Shown here: piece after piece, positions 29,901-39,446 of the stretch
Position numbering within the stretch: the first letter of the stretch is position 1
Layout: the number at the start of each line of letters is the position of its first letter
Position numbers and translations under genes: made by a program
Assembly (NCBI GenBank): GCA_030610885.1
Contig: JAUWQW010000010.1
Span: forward strand, 1 to 39,609
Source: Candidatus Aminicenantota bacterium
GTDB taxonomy: Bacteria > Acidobacteriota > Aminicenantia > UBA2199
DNA: 39,609 nucleotides
Direction of reading: 5' to 3'
Notes under the pieces: generated by a model
The model's input: the letters and a program-made list of their open reading frames with translations, nothing else
Database searches by the model: none
What the model was told of the DNA's origin: nothing

Positions 29901-31397
29901 CTATCTATTAATTAATGGAATAAAAATCTCCATATTTGCAGGGTCTTTATGGAGTGCATATATTGTTTTTTTTACAAGGGGGTGATTTCGCTTTATTAGC
30001 AACTTTTGTTTTATTGATTTTTTAAAGAATTTTTTTGGACATAAAGAGAGAAAAGGCAATGCAGATTCAATCATATATGCATAGATATTATTGAACAAGT
30101 GCTCATTACTTTGTGACATATATTTGTTTAATGTATTTAAAAAAAATTGTTCAGAAAAAGATAAATGCTCAGATTTAATGATTTTCATACTGGAAATAAT
30201 TATGAATAGATTTAAGGTTATGTATTTTAAAGATTTTTTAAAAAGAGAATAAAATTTGCGAAAAGATTTTTCCTTTTTAAATCCCGGTGATAAGAATGTG
30301 ATAGAGATATTCAGGAGATTTACAAGTATATCTCCCTGATTCTGCGTTAAGGAAAGTACAAAATGGTTACATGTATTATAATTAAGGTGTTCTTTATTCT
30401 TAAGAACTGCAAAGATAGGGTGAAATTTTGCTTCTTGGATGATTTGAGATATACATAGAGTTTTTTCTGATTTAAATTTTTTAAATGCAGAAAAGTCATT
30501 TATAAAAGAGGTATCCCCGGTTGATCTGTAATGTGTAAATATTAATTCTTCAGTGCGTTCTTTGATCTTTAATGGGAAAGAGTTGTAATTATCAGCAAGC
30601 CATTTATAGAGGTTATATGCTTGTTCTGTTAAAGGCCTTATTTGATTTTCAGTTATCTCTCCGGAGTATTCAATAGCTGCATCAAAAATAAATCCATTCT
30701 GTGGAGGCAATGAGAAATAAGAGTAGGGAATTCCCATATCAAAAAGTCTTATAATACAAAGATTACCTGATTCTGGGATAGCTACTTGTTCTCGTGTGTT
30801 GTTTTTTGATTTATCTATTTTTAAAACAGCTATATGATGAGAAAATATGGGTTTTTTGCTTATAAGACAGTTATTTAATAGAATATCTATTTGTGCTGAT
30901 TTACAGTATATTTTTAGGATCTGTTTTTCTCTTAAAATGTTTTGATTCCTTCTTGAAAAGATTGTAATACGAGTGCCAGTATTTAGATTGCAATACCTGT
31001 TTTTTTTTATAATGTTGTTCTTAAAAAGCATCTGGGTTTTTCCATATGAAGAAACATTCTCAATTAGGATTTTTTCAGGTGATGAAGCAAATATAGCTAA
31101 CAAGCCGAATCCATTACGTGTTTGTATTTTTTCCACAGCTTCCTCTTTTTGAGATGCAGGCTTTGATGGGTCAAGTAGGGTTATAAGTGTTTCTATAGAT
31201 GCACGATCCATGCCTGAACCATTGTCTTGTATACATATTTTATTATGGTTTATATGGATATTTATTTTATTTGCTTCTCTTTTTAATGCAGCACGCACCA
31301 GTTCAACAGGATAATGTGAAGAAGATCCAAAAGTGTGTTTAGCTGCTTTTTCAAGATGTGAATTTACGTCAATAGAAAATAGACTGTAATTGTTCAT
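29901..31397 (-). CDS. Second GHKL (Hsp90-like) ATPase-domain protein with altered N-box
   Basis: 498 residues, no clear membrane span or signal. Residues 10-150 are a Bergerat-fold domain: N-box PVELVRAALKREAN (Glu32), G1 DNGSGM (58-63), G2 RNGFGLLAI (94-102), and GTRITI (141-146). In the usual N-box ExxxN, the Asn that helps hold Mg-ATP is Ala36 here, so hydrolysis may be weak or absent although the Glu is kept. Residues 150-270 may be the transducer-like second domain (NQIRPLTEQAYNLYKWL). The rest is helical and unknown to me. No HisKA or receiver domain is seen. Its ATG overlaps the stop of the 920-residue gene (ATGA) with GGAG upstream, so the two are coupled. A cytosolic partner or regulator of that protein is the likeliest role. 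Confidence 0.75.
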   Translation of the reverse strand: MNNYSLFSIDVNSHLEKAAKHTFGSSSHYPVELVRAALKREANKINIHINHNKICIQDNGSGMDRASIETLITLLDPSKPASQKEEAVEKIQTRNGFGLLAIFASSPEKILIENVSSYGKTQMLFKNNIIKKNRYCNLNTGTRITIFSRRNQNILREKQILKIYCKSAQIDILLNNCLISKKPIFSHHIAVLKIDKSKNNTREQVAIPESGNLCIIRLFDMGIPYSYFSLPPQNGFIFDAAIEYSGEITENQIRPLTEQAYNLYKWLADNYNSFPLKIKERTEELIFTHYRSTGDTSFINDFSAFKKFKSEKTLCISQIIQEAKFHPIFAVLKNKEHLNYNTCNHFVLSLTQNQGDILVNLLNISITFLSPGFKKEKSFRKFYSLFKKSLKYITLNLFIIISSMKIIKSEHLSFSEQFFLNTLNKYMSQSNEHLFNNIYAYMIESALPFLSLCPKKFFKKSIKQKLLIKRNHPLVKKTIYALHKDPANMEIFIPLINR

Positions 31398-34156
31398 GAG
31401 ATCTCCCTTAGCAGCTTATATGATACTTTTGCCATAAAATCTTCTGATGAATAGGAAATTAGAGTTGATTCCTTAATTAACATCTTAATGATTCTGAATT
31501 GAGCAAGTTGAGGATTTTTATAAAAAATAGAGGAAATAGACTTTATTCTTTCACTATTGGCATTTATTGCAATAAATTTGTTAGGGATCCCAGCTTTTCG
31601 CAGACATGGCAGAGCAGATAGATCAATGTCAATAAAATCTTCCTTTAATTGGTTTTGTGTAAGCATGCAGGGAGGTTTTATATGAAAGTTTACTGCATGC
31701 AGTAATTTCCCAATTGATAAATTTAAAGCATTCTCTGGAAATATAGAATTTAATGATGTTACCATATCAAGATTGATTGCTTCAGGAATTAATTTTATAA
31801 GTGAATCAATGTTAGTATTCCCTGTTTCTATTATTGGGATTTTTGTTTTTTTCAGGTATTGAGTGATAGGGTTTACCCTACTAACATAGAAAAGTTTCCT
31901 GTATTTAGAGAGTTTTAAAACCTGATTTATGGAAATATTGTGACCAGAAAGTGTTGGGATAAGTTTTGTGTTCCAGATATTGCTATTTTTCCCCCATATC
32001 TTTGGATACAGGATTGCATGAATGACTACTTTTATGATGTTATTTTTAATGCTATTAATATCATGATTTTTAAAAGGGTTTTTCTGGTTGCTCTTTATTA
32101 CTTTTAAAATCAGAAAAAATAGGGCGTAGATTATCAGGATTGCAAAAAATATACTTAAATAAAATAATTTGGGTATGTTCTTTTGTAATATTCTTTTTGG
32201 TTCTTTTTTTACGTATATTTTATTTGGAGTTTGGATGGGTGACGAAGTGTATTGAGTTGCATCAAGAATGTGTATTCCTCTGTCAAAATATTCTGTCCAT
32301 GCGTGTAAACCAGGTAAAACTCTTCCATTTCTTCCAATTAGTCCTATTACCAGGCGGGCAGGAACTCCCATTTTACGCAAAAGAAGTGTTAAAGCTCCAT
32401 TTATTATATCGCAGTCTCCGGCTCCTATATTTATAACTCTATTAAACCAGTTTTTTTCTGACGAGTTATGATGTTTTCTTGCTATTTCATTTGAGTAATC
32501 ATACTTTATGAGTGTGTTTGTTAATTGCATAGCAATTTCAACCCTTTTTTTAACACTTAATTTATATGATTTTTCCACGACTTTTTTAAGGGAACCATGA
32601 AGAAAAAATTCTTTAGGCACTTGATAAAGCTGTTTTAAAATCTTTGAATAAAATTTATTTTCTTTTATCTTGGGGAAACACCTGTAATATAAGATTCCAT
32701 TGTGTGTGATTGTAGCGACTATACTTCCATATGAGTTGAATTTAACTGAGGAGACTGAGGCATTGTTTAATTTAACACTATTAATGTCGAGTAAATAGTT
32801 AACAGGTATGGGCAAAATAATAGTTCCTTTTTCATCGATTTTTAATTTCATATATATTGGTTTATCTGCGGAATCAAACTGTGAAAGGTTTGTAATATTT
32901 TTATTAATATTATTGCTAGTTTGAGTAAAACCTGAGTTGATCTTATATGTTTCAACATGGAATAATTTGATAAGAATATCTTTGGGAGGAGAATAGGAGA
33001 GATTAATTGGGTTTGGATGGTTTGTAATTCCAACAGAAGGCCCGGAATAAATGTTATTTTTCACATTTAAGGAAATAGGGGGGTAACTCCTCTCAATATA
33101 AGGTCCCTTAAAAAAGGTATTAAGCAAAGTATATTCTAAGGTTAGAATAAGTAAAGCTATTAATATTACAGGTTTCCAGAAAGGGCGCTTTAAAGAAAAT
33201 ATGGTTTGTTTGGCTTTATCCAATAATCTGTGTAAAAAACTTCGTGGACATACTCTATCTGTTGCAGTATCTACTAATTGAGAGAGAGCTTTTTTAGCTG
33301 AATTCTGAACTTTTTTCAAGGCATGGTTGTCAATAACTCCTCTTCTGGACATATTAACATTAAGGTTATTGCCATTTATAAGGAATACAGGTGCCAGTCC
33401 ATGAGTTATGTCTCGATTTTTTATTGTAGAAGGAGGAATATGAGATAATTCTTCAATAGAAGTTCCTTCCCATACTGGTAAACCCTTTGCATATAGATAT
33501 ACCTTTGGGAAAGGGGAAAATCCTACAATACCTTCAACAGGTCCCTTTTTAAATTTCATAGATAATGGACAGACAAGTTTCATATTTTGTGTGATTTTTT
33601 TCCCCAGAAAAGTCACAATCAAAGGCTCAGTTTTTCTGGTATTCCTTTGCAAATATGAGCAATAATGTGTTAGAGCTTTTTCTATTGTTTTCAGGAAATC
33701 TTCCGGGATTTTTTCAGAACAAGGGCGTGTAAGAGTTATTCGTGTTCCCCTTTTTTTTAAGCTGCATGCAAATTCTCTTGTATTCATTTTGGAGTCTACT
33801 AATATGCCCCATTTTTCTTTTTTATAACAGGATTCAATAATTATGGATGAGGGATTGAATTTAAGAACACTCCAGAATCCAATTCCAAACAATCCAGCAG
33901 AATATTTTTCATTGATTTTACTTGATGAATAGAGGCGGAATAGATAATGTTTAGCGTGGGATAAAGGCATTCCTGTACCATCATCTTCAAAGATAAGGTA
34001 TTCATCTCCTTTTTTTGTGTAGCCTGCATTTACCTTTATGTTTTTTGCACCTGCATCTCTGCTGTTTTGAGCAAGCTCTCTAATAAAAAACCATGTATCT
34101 TTTCCATAATTATTAAACCCAGCTTCTATCCATTTTTTAATTTCTATGCTATTCAT
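31394..34156 (-). CDS. Membrane protein fusing a GHKL ATPase to a transglutaminase-like domain
   Basis: 920 residues. Residues 1-145 are an Hsp90-like Bergerat ATPase: N-box IRELAQNSRDAGA (Glu27, Asn31), G1 EDDGTGM (57-63), G2 AGLFGIGFWS (87-96), GTRITL (137-142). Residues 180-300 resemble the second domain of such ATPases, with LNVNMSRRGVID. A transmembrane helix spans about 327-346. Residues 347-660 would face the periplasm. They hold a beta-rich part, then a transglutaminase-like core: GAGDCDIINGAL (Cys582), LPGLHAWTEYF (His618) and HILDAT (Asp632), a complete triad. A second helix spans about 664-686. A C-terminal cytoplasmic region of about 230 residues is unrecognised. Lys/Arg-rich flanks on both helices support this topology. 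Transglutaminase-like domains may cleave, cross-link or amidate proteins or cell-wall peptides. No Shine-Dalgarno is seen before the ATG. Confidence 0.85.
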   Translation of the reverse strand: MNSIEIKKWIEAGFNNYGKDTWFFIRELAQNSRDAGAKNIKVNAGYTKKGDEYLIFEDDGTGMPLSHAKHYLFRLYSSSKINEKYSAGLFGIGFWSVLKFNPSSIIIESCYKKEKWGILVDSKMNTREFACSLKKRGTRITLTRPCSEKIPEDFLKTIEKALTHYCSYLQRNTRKTEPLIVTFLGKKITQNMKLVCPLSMKFKKGPVEGIVGFSPFPKVYLYAKGLPVWEGTSIEELSHIPPSTIKNRDITHGLAPVFLINGNNLNVNMSRRGVIDNHALKKVQNSAKKALSQLVDTATDRVCPRSFLHRLLDKAKQTIFSLKRPFWKPVILIALLILTLEYTLLNTFFKGPYIERSYPPISLNVKNNIYSGPSVGITNHPNPINLSYSPPKDILIKLFHVETYKINSGFTQTSNNINKNITNLSQFDSADKPIYMKLKIDEKGTIILPIPVNYLLDINSVKLNNASVSSVKFNSYGSIVATITHNGILYYRCFPKIKENKFYSKILKQLYQVPKEFFLHGSLKKVVEKSYKLSVKKRVEIAMQLTNTLIKYDYSNEIARKHHNSSEKNWFNRVINIGAGDCDIINGALTLLLRKMGVPARLVIGLIGRNGRVLPGLHAWTEYFDRGIHILDATQYTSSPIQTPNKIYVKKEPKRILQKNIPKLFYLSIFFAILIIYALFFLILKVIKSNQKNPFKNHDINSIKNNIIKVVIHAILYPKIWGKNSNIWNTKLIPTLSGHNISINQVLKLSKYRKLFYVSRVNPITQYLKKTKIPIIETGNTNIDSLIKLIPEAINLDMVTSLNSIFPENALNLSIGKLLHAVNFHIKPPCMLTQNQLKEDFIDIDLSALPCLRKAGIPNKFIAINANSERIKSISSIFYKNPQLAQFRIIKMLIKESTLISYSSEDFMAKVSYKLLREIS

Positions 34157-34311: not shown

Positions 34312-35037
34312 ATGGACATGACAAAATATGAGGCAAAAAATAAATCAGGAGCAGTGGTATTGTTTTCAGGTGGTATCGATTCATTAACAGCTCTTTATTG
34401 GTCAAGAAAAAATTTTTCTCATATTATTGCAATAATATTTAATTATTCTCAAAAACATAGTATTGAGACTAAAATGGCTGAAAAGATTGCTTCAAGTTTA
34501 GGAATTAAGTGTCAGGAAATTGAGTTTTTTTTAAAAAATATAGTGAAATCTGCGTTAATTGATAGGGAAAGAACTATCCCTGAATCTCTGGAAAAATCAA
34601 AGAATAGGGATGGTGTACCGTTTACTTATGTTCCATTCAGGAATGGGATATTTCTTTCAATAGCTGCTGCTTTTGCAGAATCAAGAGGTATATTTAATAT
34701 TGTTACTGGATTCAATTTAATTGATACACCTGATTACCCTGATACAACAGAGGAGTTTACAGTCAAAATGGAAGATGCTATAAACCAGGGAACTTCAGCT
34801 TCAATTACAAAAAAGAGGTTTAAGATTCATACTCCTCTTATAAAAAAGAGTAAAAAAGAAATAATAAAATTTGGGTTAAAGCTTGGAGCAGATTATTCTT
34901 ATTCAATATCGTGCTATAGGGGACATGAAATACCATGTTTTAAATGTCCTTCATGTGATATAAGGAACAATGCATTTGAACAATTAAATATGGAGGACCC
35001 ATTGATAACAAGATTGAAAAAGGAGGGAAAAATATGA
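34312..35037 (+). CDS. queC: 7-cyano-7-deazaguanine (preQ0) synthase
   Basis: 241 residues. An ATP-using PP-loop enzyme that turns 7-carboxy-7-deazaguanine into preQ0. The PP-loop is SGGIDS (19-24). The zinc Cys set is CYRGHEIPCFKCPSC (Cys201, 209, 212, 215). VPFRNGIFLSIAAAFAE is also typical. The start could be ATG 34312 or 34318; neither has a good ribosome binding site. queD overlaps its stop by four bases. No preQ1 riboswitch is visible upstream. Confidence 0.95.
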   Translation: MDMTKYEAKNKSGAVVLFSGGIDSLTALYWSRKNFSHIIAIIFNYSQKHSIETKMAEKIASSLGIKCQEIEFFLKNIVKSALIDRERTIPESLEKSKNRDGVPFTYVPFRNGIFLSIAAAFAESRGIFNIVTGFNLIDTPDYPDTTEEFTVKMEDAINQGTSASITKKRFKIHTPLIKKSKKEIIKFGLKLGADYSYSISCYRGHEIPCFKCPSCDIRNNAFEQLNMEDPLITRLKKEGKI

Positions 35038-35384
35038 GCTGGGAATTAATTGTTAAAGATAAATTTTCATGTGCACATTTTCTTAAGGGTTATAAGGGGA
35101 AATGTGAAAGGATGCATGGTCATACTTTTCAAATCGAAGTATTTTTTTCTGTAAATAAACTTGATAAATCTGGAATTTCTGTAGATTTTACTGAAATTAA
35201 AGATTATTTAAATGGTATTTTACCTGACCACCAGGTTTTAAATGAAGTTTTTGATTTTTCACCTTCTGCTGAGAATTTATCAAAATATTTTTATCTCAAA
35301 ATAAAAGAGAAGTACCCTGTTTCAAAGGTAATCATCTGGGAATCAGATAATGCAGGGGCAGTTTATTTTGAAGAGCACGCATAA
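35034..35384 (+). CDS. queD: 6-carboxy-5,6,7,8-tetrahydropterin synthase
   Basis: 116 residues, a tunnelling-fold enzyme of the 7-deazaguanine pathway acting on dihydroneopterin triphosphate. Zinc His residues are His15 in FSCAHFL and His28/His30 in MHGHTF. The catalytic Cys24 lies in GKCERMHGH. WESDNAGAVY near the end is the pterin-binding region. It sits between queC (ATGA overlap) and queE (six-base gap), so all three steps from pterin to preQ0 are made together. A GTP cyclohydrolase gene is not in the window. Confidence 0.95.
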   Translation: MSWELIVKDKFSCAHFLKGYKGKCERMHGHTFQIEVFFSVNKLDKSGISVDFTEIKDYLNGILPDHQVLNEVFDFSPSAENLSKYFYLKIKEKYPVSKVIIWESDNAGAVYFEEHA

Positions 35385-35390
35385 ATAGAG

Positions 35391-36002
35391 ATGTTGATTA
35401 CAGAAATATTCTGGTCTATTCAGGGTGAGGGATTAAGAACAGGAATGGCATCAATTTTTTTAAGACTTTCAGGTTGTTCATTAAAATGTTCGAATTGTGA
35501 TACAAAAAATTCATGGCAAAATGGAATATATAAAGATGTGTATGAGATAATTTCAGAAATAGATGAATATGGTAAGAGATATCCTGAATCACAGGTTGTA
35601 ATTACTGGAGGAGAACCGCTGGAACAAGATTTAACAGATGTTGTTAAGTATTTGAAAAGCAAGAACTATTTTATATCAATTGAGACAAATGGAGTAAATT
35701 TTCAAGATTTAGAGATTGATTGGTGGACAATATCACCAAAGGATGTAAAGGATTATTACATTAATGAAAATTTATTTAAAAGAATCAGTGAAATTAAGTT
35801 GATTGTTAATGAAAATCTGAATATTGATATTATAAAAAAAATAAGAAAAATAAGTAGTAATTTTCCAATTTTCCTGCAGCCTGATTTTTATGATAAAAAC
35901 AATTATAAAAATACATTTTCATTGTTTCAAAAATGTCAGGAAAATGATATTAAAGATATAAGATTAGGAATACAGGTTCATAAGATATTTAATATAAAAT
36001 AA
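35391..36002 (+). CDS. queE: 7-carboxy-7-deazaguanine synthase (radical SAM)
   Basis: 203 residues. It contracts the ring of carboxy-tetrahydropterin to carboxy-deazaguanine. The cluster motif CSLKCSNCDTK holds Cys29, Cys33 and Cys36. EIFWSIQGEGLRTG at the N-terminus is the QueE signature, and VITGGEPLEQ is the SAM motif. DWWTISPKDVKD is also typical of the family. No gene for a DNA-modifying 7-deazaguanine enzyme is present nearby, so tRNA queuosine is the probable end use. It ends 23 bases from the nitroreductase gene on the other strand. Confidence 0.94.
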   Translation: MLITEIFWSIQGEGLRTGMASIFLRLSGCSLKCSNCDTKNSWQNGIYKDVYEIISEIDEYGKRYPESQVVITGGEPLEQDLTDVVKYLKSKNYFISIETNGVNFQDLEIDWWTISPKDVKDYYINENLFKRISEIKLIVNENLNIDIIKKIRKISSNFPIFLQPDFYDKNNYKNTFSLFQKCQENDIKDIRLGIQVHKIFNIK

Positions 36003-38720: not shown

Positions 38721-39446
38721 TTAATCTAAACTAATAGATTTTTTTGTTTTTTCTCTCCTTTTTTCATCCATTCTATCCCATCTTTTCATACATTTAGGAT
38801 GACTAATTTTAGCAAGTGAGCATTCTAAGTATTCTGATATATAGACAATACAGGCTCTTATTACTTTTCCAACCGGTGTTTTTTTAGCCTCTGATCCTCC
38901 GATATCAAAGTTTCTTAAGGAAAGACCTGCACCTATTGCACTACCTTTGGCTTTAGCTTCAATTGTTCTTGCATCAATTATTTCTCCGGTCTCTGTATCT
39001 ATGATTTTTACATCAACTGCAATATAAGCTTTGGTTTTTTCACCACCAAGCTTTAATCCCTTAAACCTAACTTTTCCTCCGGTTTTCTGGCTCATTTCAA
39101 AAGCGGACACAGTTCCTGCAATAAGATATTTTGCTCCCTTTATTTGTCCCATCTTTACGAGAGTTGATTTGCTAACTCTTCCTGATGCACTCAAATCCTG
39201 TTCGCTTAACACTGCTGATATCTCTTTTCTTTCTAATACATTGAATGCTTTTGTGCTGTAAAGTTCTGAAATTAGCATATCCTGGAGCTCTGTTGCAACC
39301 TTGTTATTCCATGCCCAAAAGCTGGTTCCTGCAACAGTATTGGTAAATCTAAGAACACCGATTCTTGGCTTTTCATCTGCAAAAGCAAATGATGACAAGC
39401 CAATAAAGAACAAAATTAATACTAAAGTTAAAATACTTTTTTTCAT
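38721..39446 (-). CDS. Exported CsgG-family protein
   Basis: 241 residues. A signal peptide (residues 1-23, cleavage after FAFA) has no lipobox Cys, so it is secreted to the periplasm or outer membrane rather than lipidated. The body resembles CsgG/curli-assembly proteins: KPRIGVLRFTN, LQDMLISELYSTKAFNVLERKEI, MGQIKGAKYLIAGTVSAFE and VDVKIIDTETGEII. True CsgG is a lipoprotein pore for curli; many relatives only share the domain and have no known export role. The C-terminal tail is Lys/Arg-rich. AAGGAGG precedes the ATG. Confidence 0.8.
   Translation of the reverse strand: MKKSILTLVLILFFIGLSSFAFADEKPRIGVLRFTNTVAGTSFWAWNNKVATELQDMLISELYSTKAFNVLERKEISAVLSEQDLSASGRVSKSTLVKMGQIKGAKYLIAGTVSAFEMSQKTGGKVRFKGLKLGGEKTKAYIAVDVKIIDTETGEIIDARTIEAKAKGSAIGAGLSLRNFDIGGSEAKKTPVGKVIRACIVYISEYLECSLAKISHPKCMKRWDRMDEKRREKTKKSISLD

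Follow-up and report, generated by a model that had tools for sequence, protein, structure and literature searches.

Two overlapping genes in the window, the 39,609-nucleotide (nt) contig JAUWQW010000010.1 of a Candidatus Aminicenantota bacterium (GenBank assembly GCA_030610885.1), encode a chain in which a GHKL ATPase and a transglutaminase-like domain are joined through the membrane (A) and a soluble partner whose GHKL domain lacks the Mg-binding Asn (B). The best explanation, to which we give about an even chance, is that A and B form a two-protein envelope machine, an asymmetric ATP-driven clamp that would control a TgpA-like envelope enzyme from inside the cell. A preliminary description of this DNA, made from its letters without database searches, had reported the fusion in A. 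The fusion is real and conserved, but the overlapping pseudo-GHKL partner and the soluble relatives were overlooked. Because of B, the tail that it shares with A, and those relatives, A no longer looks like a fusion that works by itself but like one member of an asymmetric system of two proteins.

Gene A is a single intact open reading frame (ORF) of 920 codons with an ATG start. The preliminary description had its coordinates right and left its strand, the minus strand, unstated; the plus strand of the same stretch has many stops in the given frame. The start codon of B lies within the stop codon of A (ATGA). The features of the pair are listed below, all on the minus strand, with lengths in amino acids (aa).

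31394..34156, minus strand: gene A, 920 aa, comprising GHKL ATPase, transducer, transmembrane helix 1, periplasmic transglutaminase-like domain, transmembrane helix 2 and cytoplasmic tail.
33662..34156, minus strand: A residues 1-165, GHKL (Bergerat) ATPase domain with E27, N31, D58, G60, G62, G88, G91 and G93 intact (HATPase_c_3, profiles, dN/dS).
33191..33661, minus strand: A residues 166-322, transducer-like region that follows the ATPase and is also found in the soluble relatives (HHalign probability 94.5).
33113..33169, minus strand: A residues 330-348, transmembrane helix 1 (hydropathy; Lys/Arg richer on the N-terminal, inner side).
32237..33103, minus strand: A residues 352-640, periplasmic region with the transglutaminase-like domain at about 537-640 and C582, H618 and D632.
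32096..32152, minus strand: A residues 669-687, transmembrane helix 2 (hydropathy; Lys/Arg richer on the C-terminal, inner side).
31397..32089, minus strand: A residues 690-920, cytoplasmic tail with homology to the C-terminal half of B (HHalign probability 93.6).
31394..31397, minus strand: ATGA overlap of the A stop and the B start (translational coupling).
29901..31397, minus strand: gene B, 498 aa, soluble partner with a pseudo-GHKL domain (HATPase_c_3, E = 3.8e-9; the Mg-binding Asn position is never Asn in 30 homologues) and a tail-like C-terminus.

The N-terminal domain of A was examined for the features of an active ATPase. The Pfam model HATPase_c_3 matched residues 25-118 (E = 2.1e-11), over its curated cut-off. 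Thirty-one A proteins were aligned; N-terminal counts omit L104, which starts on another contig, and L058, which is disrupted near its start. All 29 homologues with an intact N-terminus have Glu27, Asn31, Asp58, Gly60, Gly62, Gly91 and Gly93 unchanged. A has the N-box Glu and Asn, the DxGxG motif and the glycine-rich second box of the GHKL superfamily, as expected of the intact ATPase that had been proposed. The motifs are present, but the limits first given for them (G1 at 57-63, G2 at 87-96) were imprecise; G1 corresponds to D58-x-G60, and the glycine box to about 88-95. By profile this domain matched HtpG, MORC2, sacsin and MutL. The best NCBIfam match of A was the sacsin N-terminal ATP-binding domain (E = 2e-10), under the model's own cut-off, and the NCBIfam HSP90 models matched the ATPase part of A only, far below cut-off. 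Pfam found no Hsp90 middle or C-terminal domain in A. HisKA was also without a match in A, where the GHKL domain starts within the first 20-25 residues with no preceding domain. Selection was estimated as the ratio of nonsynonymous to synonymous substitution rates (dN/dS) against L006, a full-length homologue 75% identical to A, found by a public-genome scan in an Aminicenantes metagenome-assembled genome (MAG). The ratio was 0.23 for the whole of A, 0.11 for the GHKL domain, which is the most constrained part, and 0.30 for the transglutaminase part.

Two transmembrane helices had been proposed, and hydrophobic helices near 330-348 and 669-687 recur across the A family. Mean Lys/Arg counts beside them in 29 homologues are 3.7 on the N-terminal and 2.1 on the C-terminal side of helix 1, and 2.1 and 4.3 on the corresponding sides of helix 2. 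These counts fit an N-in, loop-out, C-in topology, which is the predicted arrangement. The tail was also placed in the cytoplasm because it is homologous to the C-terminus of B, which itself contains no strong transmembrane segment.

The periplasmic part contains Transglut_core (PF01841) at residues 537-625 (E = 1.4e-8, over the curated cut-off), in the same chain as HATPase_c_3, and this domain was recovered in 31/31 A homologues. The triad named in the preliminary description, Cys582, His618 and Asp632, is invariant in all 31 proteins. By profile match and Cys-His-Asp triad, A belongs to the transglutaminase-like superfamily. A profile search of the PDB with the periplasmic part of A returned TgpA as the only significant solved relative (6g49, E = 2.6e-6); 6g49 is identified as TgpA of Pseudomonas aeruginosa in PMC10318531. 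The purified periplasmic domain of TgpA has calcium-independent transglutaminase activity in vitro, and TgpA is critical for viability (PMC3507681).

A resembles TgpA (the PA2873 type, which has MoxR and DUF58 partners) in that it sits in the inner membrane, has a large transglutaminase-like domain in the periplasm with a transmembrane helix after it, and is linked to a cytoplasmic ATPase. In TgpA-type systems that ATPase is a separate AAA+ protein, MoxR, whereas A carries its own, a GHKL domain within the chain, and has a pseudo-GHKL partner besides. TgpA begins with a five-helix DUF3488 region (PMC3507681), to which A has no match (TgpA_N/DUF3488); a scan of the 31 periplasmic regions of A homologues gave a single weak TgpA_N match (E = 0.018). 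The tail of A, also unlike TgpA, matches no Pfam family. No MoxR or DUF58 gene lies beside A and B in the window, and a MoxR-like reading frame, recognised by eye, was seen several genes from the pair in L057 and L103 only. The contrast with TgpA drawn at the outset was borne out. Judged by sequence, A is not a TgpA, since the N-domain is missing, MoxR/DUF58 genes are not adjacent and the ATPase is of another superfamily. No description of a GHKL-membrane-transglutaminase architecture was found in the open-licence literature searched, in agreement with the earlier statement that the fusion was undescribed.

B also has a GHKL domain, as identified by Pfam, with a different active site. The N-box of the window pair reads ELAQNSRD in A and ELVRAALK in B. 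Asn occupies the Mg-binding position in 0/30 B proteins; about half of them have another residue in place of the catalytic Glu, and half in place of the DxG Asp. B lacks the Mg-coordinating N-box Asn by which an active GHKL domain is recognised. From established knowledge of GHKL active sites, ATP hydrolysis by B is unlikely, and B is predicted to be a pseudo-ATPase. The dN/dS of B is 0.25 overall and 0.17 in the GHKL part; because B is under purifying selection, it appears to be a retained pseudo-enzyme and not a decaying gene. The PADLOC model REase_II matched the GHKL stretch of B only (E = 4.2e-5).

The tail of A, about 230 residues, had been called unrecognised. Pfam indeed gave no significant match in any of 30 homologues, and no significant PDB family was found, but homology to the C-terminus of B had been overlooked. 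In HHalign, the profile of the A tail (690-920) matched that of the B C-terminus with a probability of 93.6 and a score of 52.3, against a maximum of 17.4 in 60 column permutations and 12.4 for the reversed tail. The A and B GHKL domains, compared in the same way, gave 97.3. B resembles A minus the membrane-transglutaminase cassette. A bpX5 match in one B protein only (E = 0.05) was treated as chance.

The public-genome scan also identified a 34% identical A homologue in a 'Deltaproteobacteria' MAG (L007). In the window's phylum, 11/297 genomes had the whole or most of A in one frame, and a search with B only returned exactly the same 11 genomes. In the window's family, A was found in 29/34 genomes (the misses are incomplete drafts), B in 29/34 and both in 28/34. 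In the phylum of L007, the A architecture was present in 13/195 genomes, some split over contigs. B was found in 13/13 of these, and two extra B matches (G570 and G653) came from genomes with soluble-type A relatives. The phylum of L009 gave no match in 395 genomes at E 1e-25, which is weak evidence of absence as two candidates per genome were scored with no positive control. Phage and plasmid records contained no match to A. B lies directly after A in every examined locus with both genes on one contig (30 pairs), and the overlap is 4 or 8 nt in 22/30, with start codons chosen from homology. A is a core gene kept by vertical inheritance in its own family and patchy elsewhere.

In the phylum of L007, the A profile also picked up proteins of about 520-970 aa whose GHKL domain is intact. 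These soluble members match A in order, with HHalign probabilities of 99.9 for the GHKL domain, 94.5 for the transducer and 97.1 for the tail, and profile comparison gave no transglutaminase signal in them. At five soluble loci, the next gene on the same strand encodes a protein of about 1190-1870 aa with a B-type GHKL domain without the Asn (YVLELVQAAV and similar). The long proteins had no Pfam match in the three scanned. These pairs, each made up of an intact GHKL protein and, after it, a very long B-type GHKL protein, have the following coordinates.

L105:2732-9349, soluble pair.
L115:6583-12072, soluble pair.
L116:1549-7894, soluble pair.
L117:6789-14001, soluble pair.
L118:845-8181, soluble pair.

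An A-type GHKL domain with tail, next to a B-type GHKL domain without Asn, was found in 30 transglutaminase pairs and 5 soluble pairs. In a tree of the GHKL domains, all A grouped with soluble A and all B with soluble B, the split between the two sides having an SH-aLRT of 99.6; the tree was built from 197 columns and is unrooted, and three B rows are long-branched. The A and B subtrees have their main groupings in common. The simplest history would be an old duplication that produced an active and a dead GHKL chain, after which a cassette of transmembrane helix, transglutaminase and transmembrane helix was inserted into the active chain in one branch. We think it plausible, at slightly under an even chance, that these genes make up an undescribed superfamily of two-protein clamps, each a tandem of an active and an obligate pseudo-GHKL chain, in at least two phyla, and that the branch with the inserted cassette is an ATP-powered switch that works an extracytoplasmic enzyme directly from inside the cell. 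At one further locus, L114:8059-12259, two adjacent GHKL genes both have Glu and Asn, an arrangement unlike the active/pseudo pairs.

In the mechanism that we infer, A and B would form a physical complex with ATPase activity inside and enzyme activity outside the inner membrane. Anchored in the inner membrane, A would bind and hydrolyse ATP with its cytoplasmic GHKL domain, and its periplasmic domain would act on an envelope substrate by cross-linking, deamidation or peptide cleavage. The two proteins would pair by way of their GHKL domains and tails to give an asymmetric clamp in which only A turns over ATP; the reasons are that the genes are in tandem order and co-inherited, that the tail is shared and that the B site is probably dead. 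ATP binding to A would shut the clamp against B. Because the cassette sits between clamp and tail, both possibly touching B, closure would move both membrane helices. This movement, transmitted via the two helices that bracket the cassette, would switch the periplasmic enzyme, and hydrolysis would reset the system. B, which would not hydrolyse ATP, would have the regulatory part, either fixing when the clamp moves or responding to a signal in the cytoplasm. GHKL dimers close when ATP binds, and their two sites are often used unequally; MutL-alpha (MLH1-PMS2), with two paralogous GHKL chains and unequal ATP use, is the closest model of how A-B might work (PMC12733681). It differs in that both of its chains bind and hydrolyse ATP, whereas B is without the Mg-binding Asn in every homologue, and in its unrelated output domain. 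We rate A-B as probably fitting the known pattern of GHKL clamps with varied output domains.

Several observations weigh against this mechanism. The AlphaFold model of A, made from a three-row alignment, had a mean pLDDT (the program's per-residue confidence score) of 37.4 and was discarded as unusable. The model of B was reliable at about residues 12-182 only, which is the GHKL domain; Foldseek with this confident part returned the N-domains of TRAP1, Hsp90 and MutL, which adds nothing beyond the profiles. The window B retains Glu32, Asp58 and the glycine motifs, and with Asp58 and these motifs kept it may still bind nucleotide. Gene neighbourhoods outside A-B vary between lineages and point to no substrate. 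Transglutaminase-like domains are diverse and include peptidases, acyltransferases and non-enzymes, hence the chemistry of A is not fixed by its fold. Transglutaminase, deamidase and peptidase are indistinguishable from sequence, and the outer enzyme of A is only putative. Finally, signalling could run outside-in.

Signalling from sensor to clamp is the main rival to the gating direction that we favour. Here the transglutaminase-like fold would sense a ligand or substrate and the cytoplasmic A-B clamp would be the output, for example a chaperone-like one, in the manner of a transmembrane histidine kinase. Soluble GHKL/pseudo-GHKL pairs without a transglutaminase domain exist, so the clamp would have a job of its own, and the GHKL domain is more constrained than the transglutaminase part (dN/dS 0.11 vs 0.30). 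A mere sensor, however, would not need the Cys-His-Asp triad that is invariant across 31/31 divergent homologues, and we felt that this direction was unlikely, although worth keeping in view. A does share with transmembrane histidine kinases a cytoplasmic GHKL domain joined via membrane helices to a periplasmic domain. It differs in that the GHKL domain is N-terminal, ahead of the helices, no HisKA phospho-acceptor domain was found, the chain re-enters the cytoplasm with a tail, and the periplasmic part is a triad-bearing enzyme fold.

Membrane-tethered quality control is a less probable alternative. A-B would then be an Hsp90/sacsin-like chaperone, and the papain-like periplasmic fold would be a protease or deamidase acting on misfolded envelope proteins. 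The closeness of the A GHKL profile to HtpG, sacsin and MORC2 would agree with this, as would the housekeeping chromosomal context, the near-universal presence in the window's family and the membrane zinc peptidase genes that are neighbours in some lineages (L056, Zn_peptidase_2, E = 1.6e-88). Neighbours differ between lineages, however, and the Hsp90 middle/C-terminal domain was not found by Pfam. Like Hsp90/HtpG, MutL, MORC and sacsin, A has a HATPase_c_3-type Bergerat fold with all catalytic motifs, and ATP-dependent dimerisation is likely. Unlike them, it has no Hsp90 middle/C-terminal, MutL C-terminal, HEPN, REase or DNA-linked domain, spans the membrane and carries a periplasmic enzyme fold. 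On its domain content A would be assigned to none of TgpA, Hsp90 and the histidine kinases.

GHKL ATPases and transglutaminase-like peptidases are both known in conflict systems (PMC3710099, PMC7159879), and a defence role was considered in which an ATP-driven switch would free a membrane-damaging or cross-linking effector upon infection. PADLOC gave a weak TmtA match to A residues 19-98, the GHKL part only (E = 1.5e-6), but no PADLOC model spans the whole protein. The distribution disfavours defence, as A is found in 29/34 family genomes beside queC and argF-like genes, without a phage or plasmid match, and looks like a vertically inherited core gene rather than part of a patchy defence island; we regard this role as very improbable. 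That A is an assembly join or gene-prediction artefact, conceivable as the draft genome is in 128 contigs, of which the window is one, can be dismissed because the same domain order, sought in other genomes as had been suggested, was recovered as single full-length ORFs in dozens of independent genomes from two phyla, with purifying selection across the domain junctions.

The periplasm contains no ATP, and how cells power or time periplasmic chemistry is a general question. If the clamp mechanism is true, a single chain in which a GHKL clamp brackets a transglutaminase-like enzyme would answer it mechanically and directly, and more simply than the separate MoxR, DUF58 and TgpA proteins. The obligate pseudo-GHKL partner would provide a natural asymmetric GHKL pair in which one of the two sites is defective throughout the species examined. 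Together, the tail common to A and B and the soluble relatives would mark out a GHKL family that is unnamed in Pfam, NCBIfam and PADLOC.

The neighbouring genes were also examined. In the window, queC (QueC, Pfam E = 1.5e-64) is divergent from gene A across a gap of 155 nt and is followed by two genes, one QueD-like and one QueE-like (34312-36002). The gene at 38721-39446 encodes a CsgG-family protein (E = 1.9e-44) that also matches LpoB, though less strongly. The promoter scan did not outperform shuffled sequences, and a search for terminator-like sites gave none. In one branch a membrane protein of about 510 aa is encoded directly upstream of A (L095:5000-6544, L097:3472-5010, L098:6534-8459); in L097 and L098 an alternative choice of start makes it overlap the start of A, and it had no significant Pfam match and no HExxH motif. 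In another branch a Zn_peptidase_2 membrane metallopeptidase gene lies about 90 nt upstream of A (L056:2857-3558, L059:7863-8564), called by profile scan in L056 and by sequence similarity in L059. In relatives of genus g2, a metallo-beta-lactamase-fold gene precedes A at a distance of about 15 nt, and B is directly followed by a gene for a DUF3014 protein.

L051:5506-6237 and L111:5099-5833, metallo-beta-lactamase-fold genes of g2.
L053:13675-14472, DUF3014 gene of g2.

Four further transglutaminase genes were found in the same genome. Two encode DUF3857 proteins, and the other two were read by eye as an apparent beta-propeller-like fusion and a 225-aa protein. By these reads none of the four qualifies as a canonical TgpA in this draft, which is 92.6% complete. 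At L001:1300-2907 of the same genome, beta-propeller-looking N-terminal repeats are followed by a transglutaminase-like domain.

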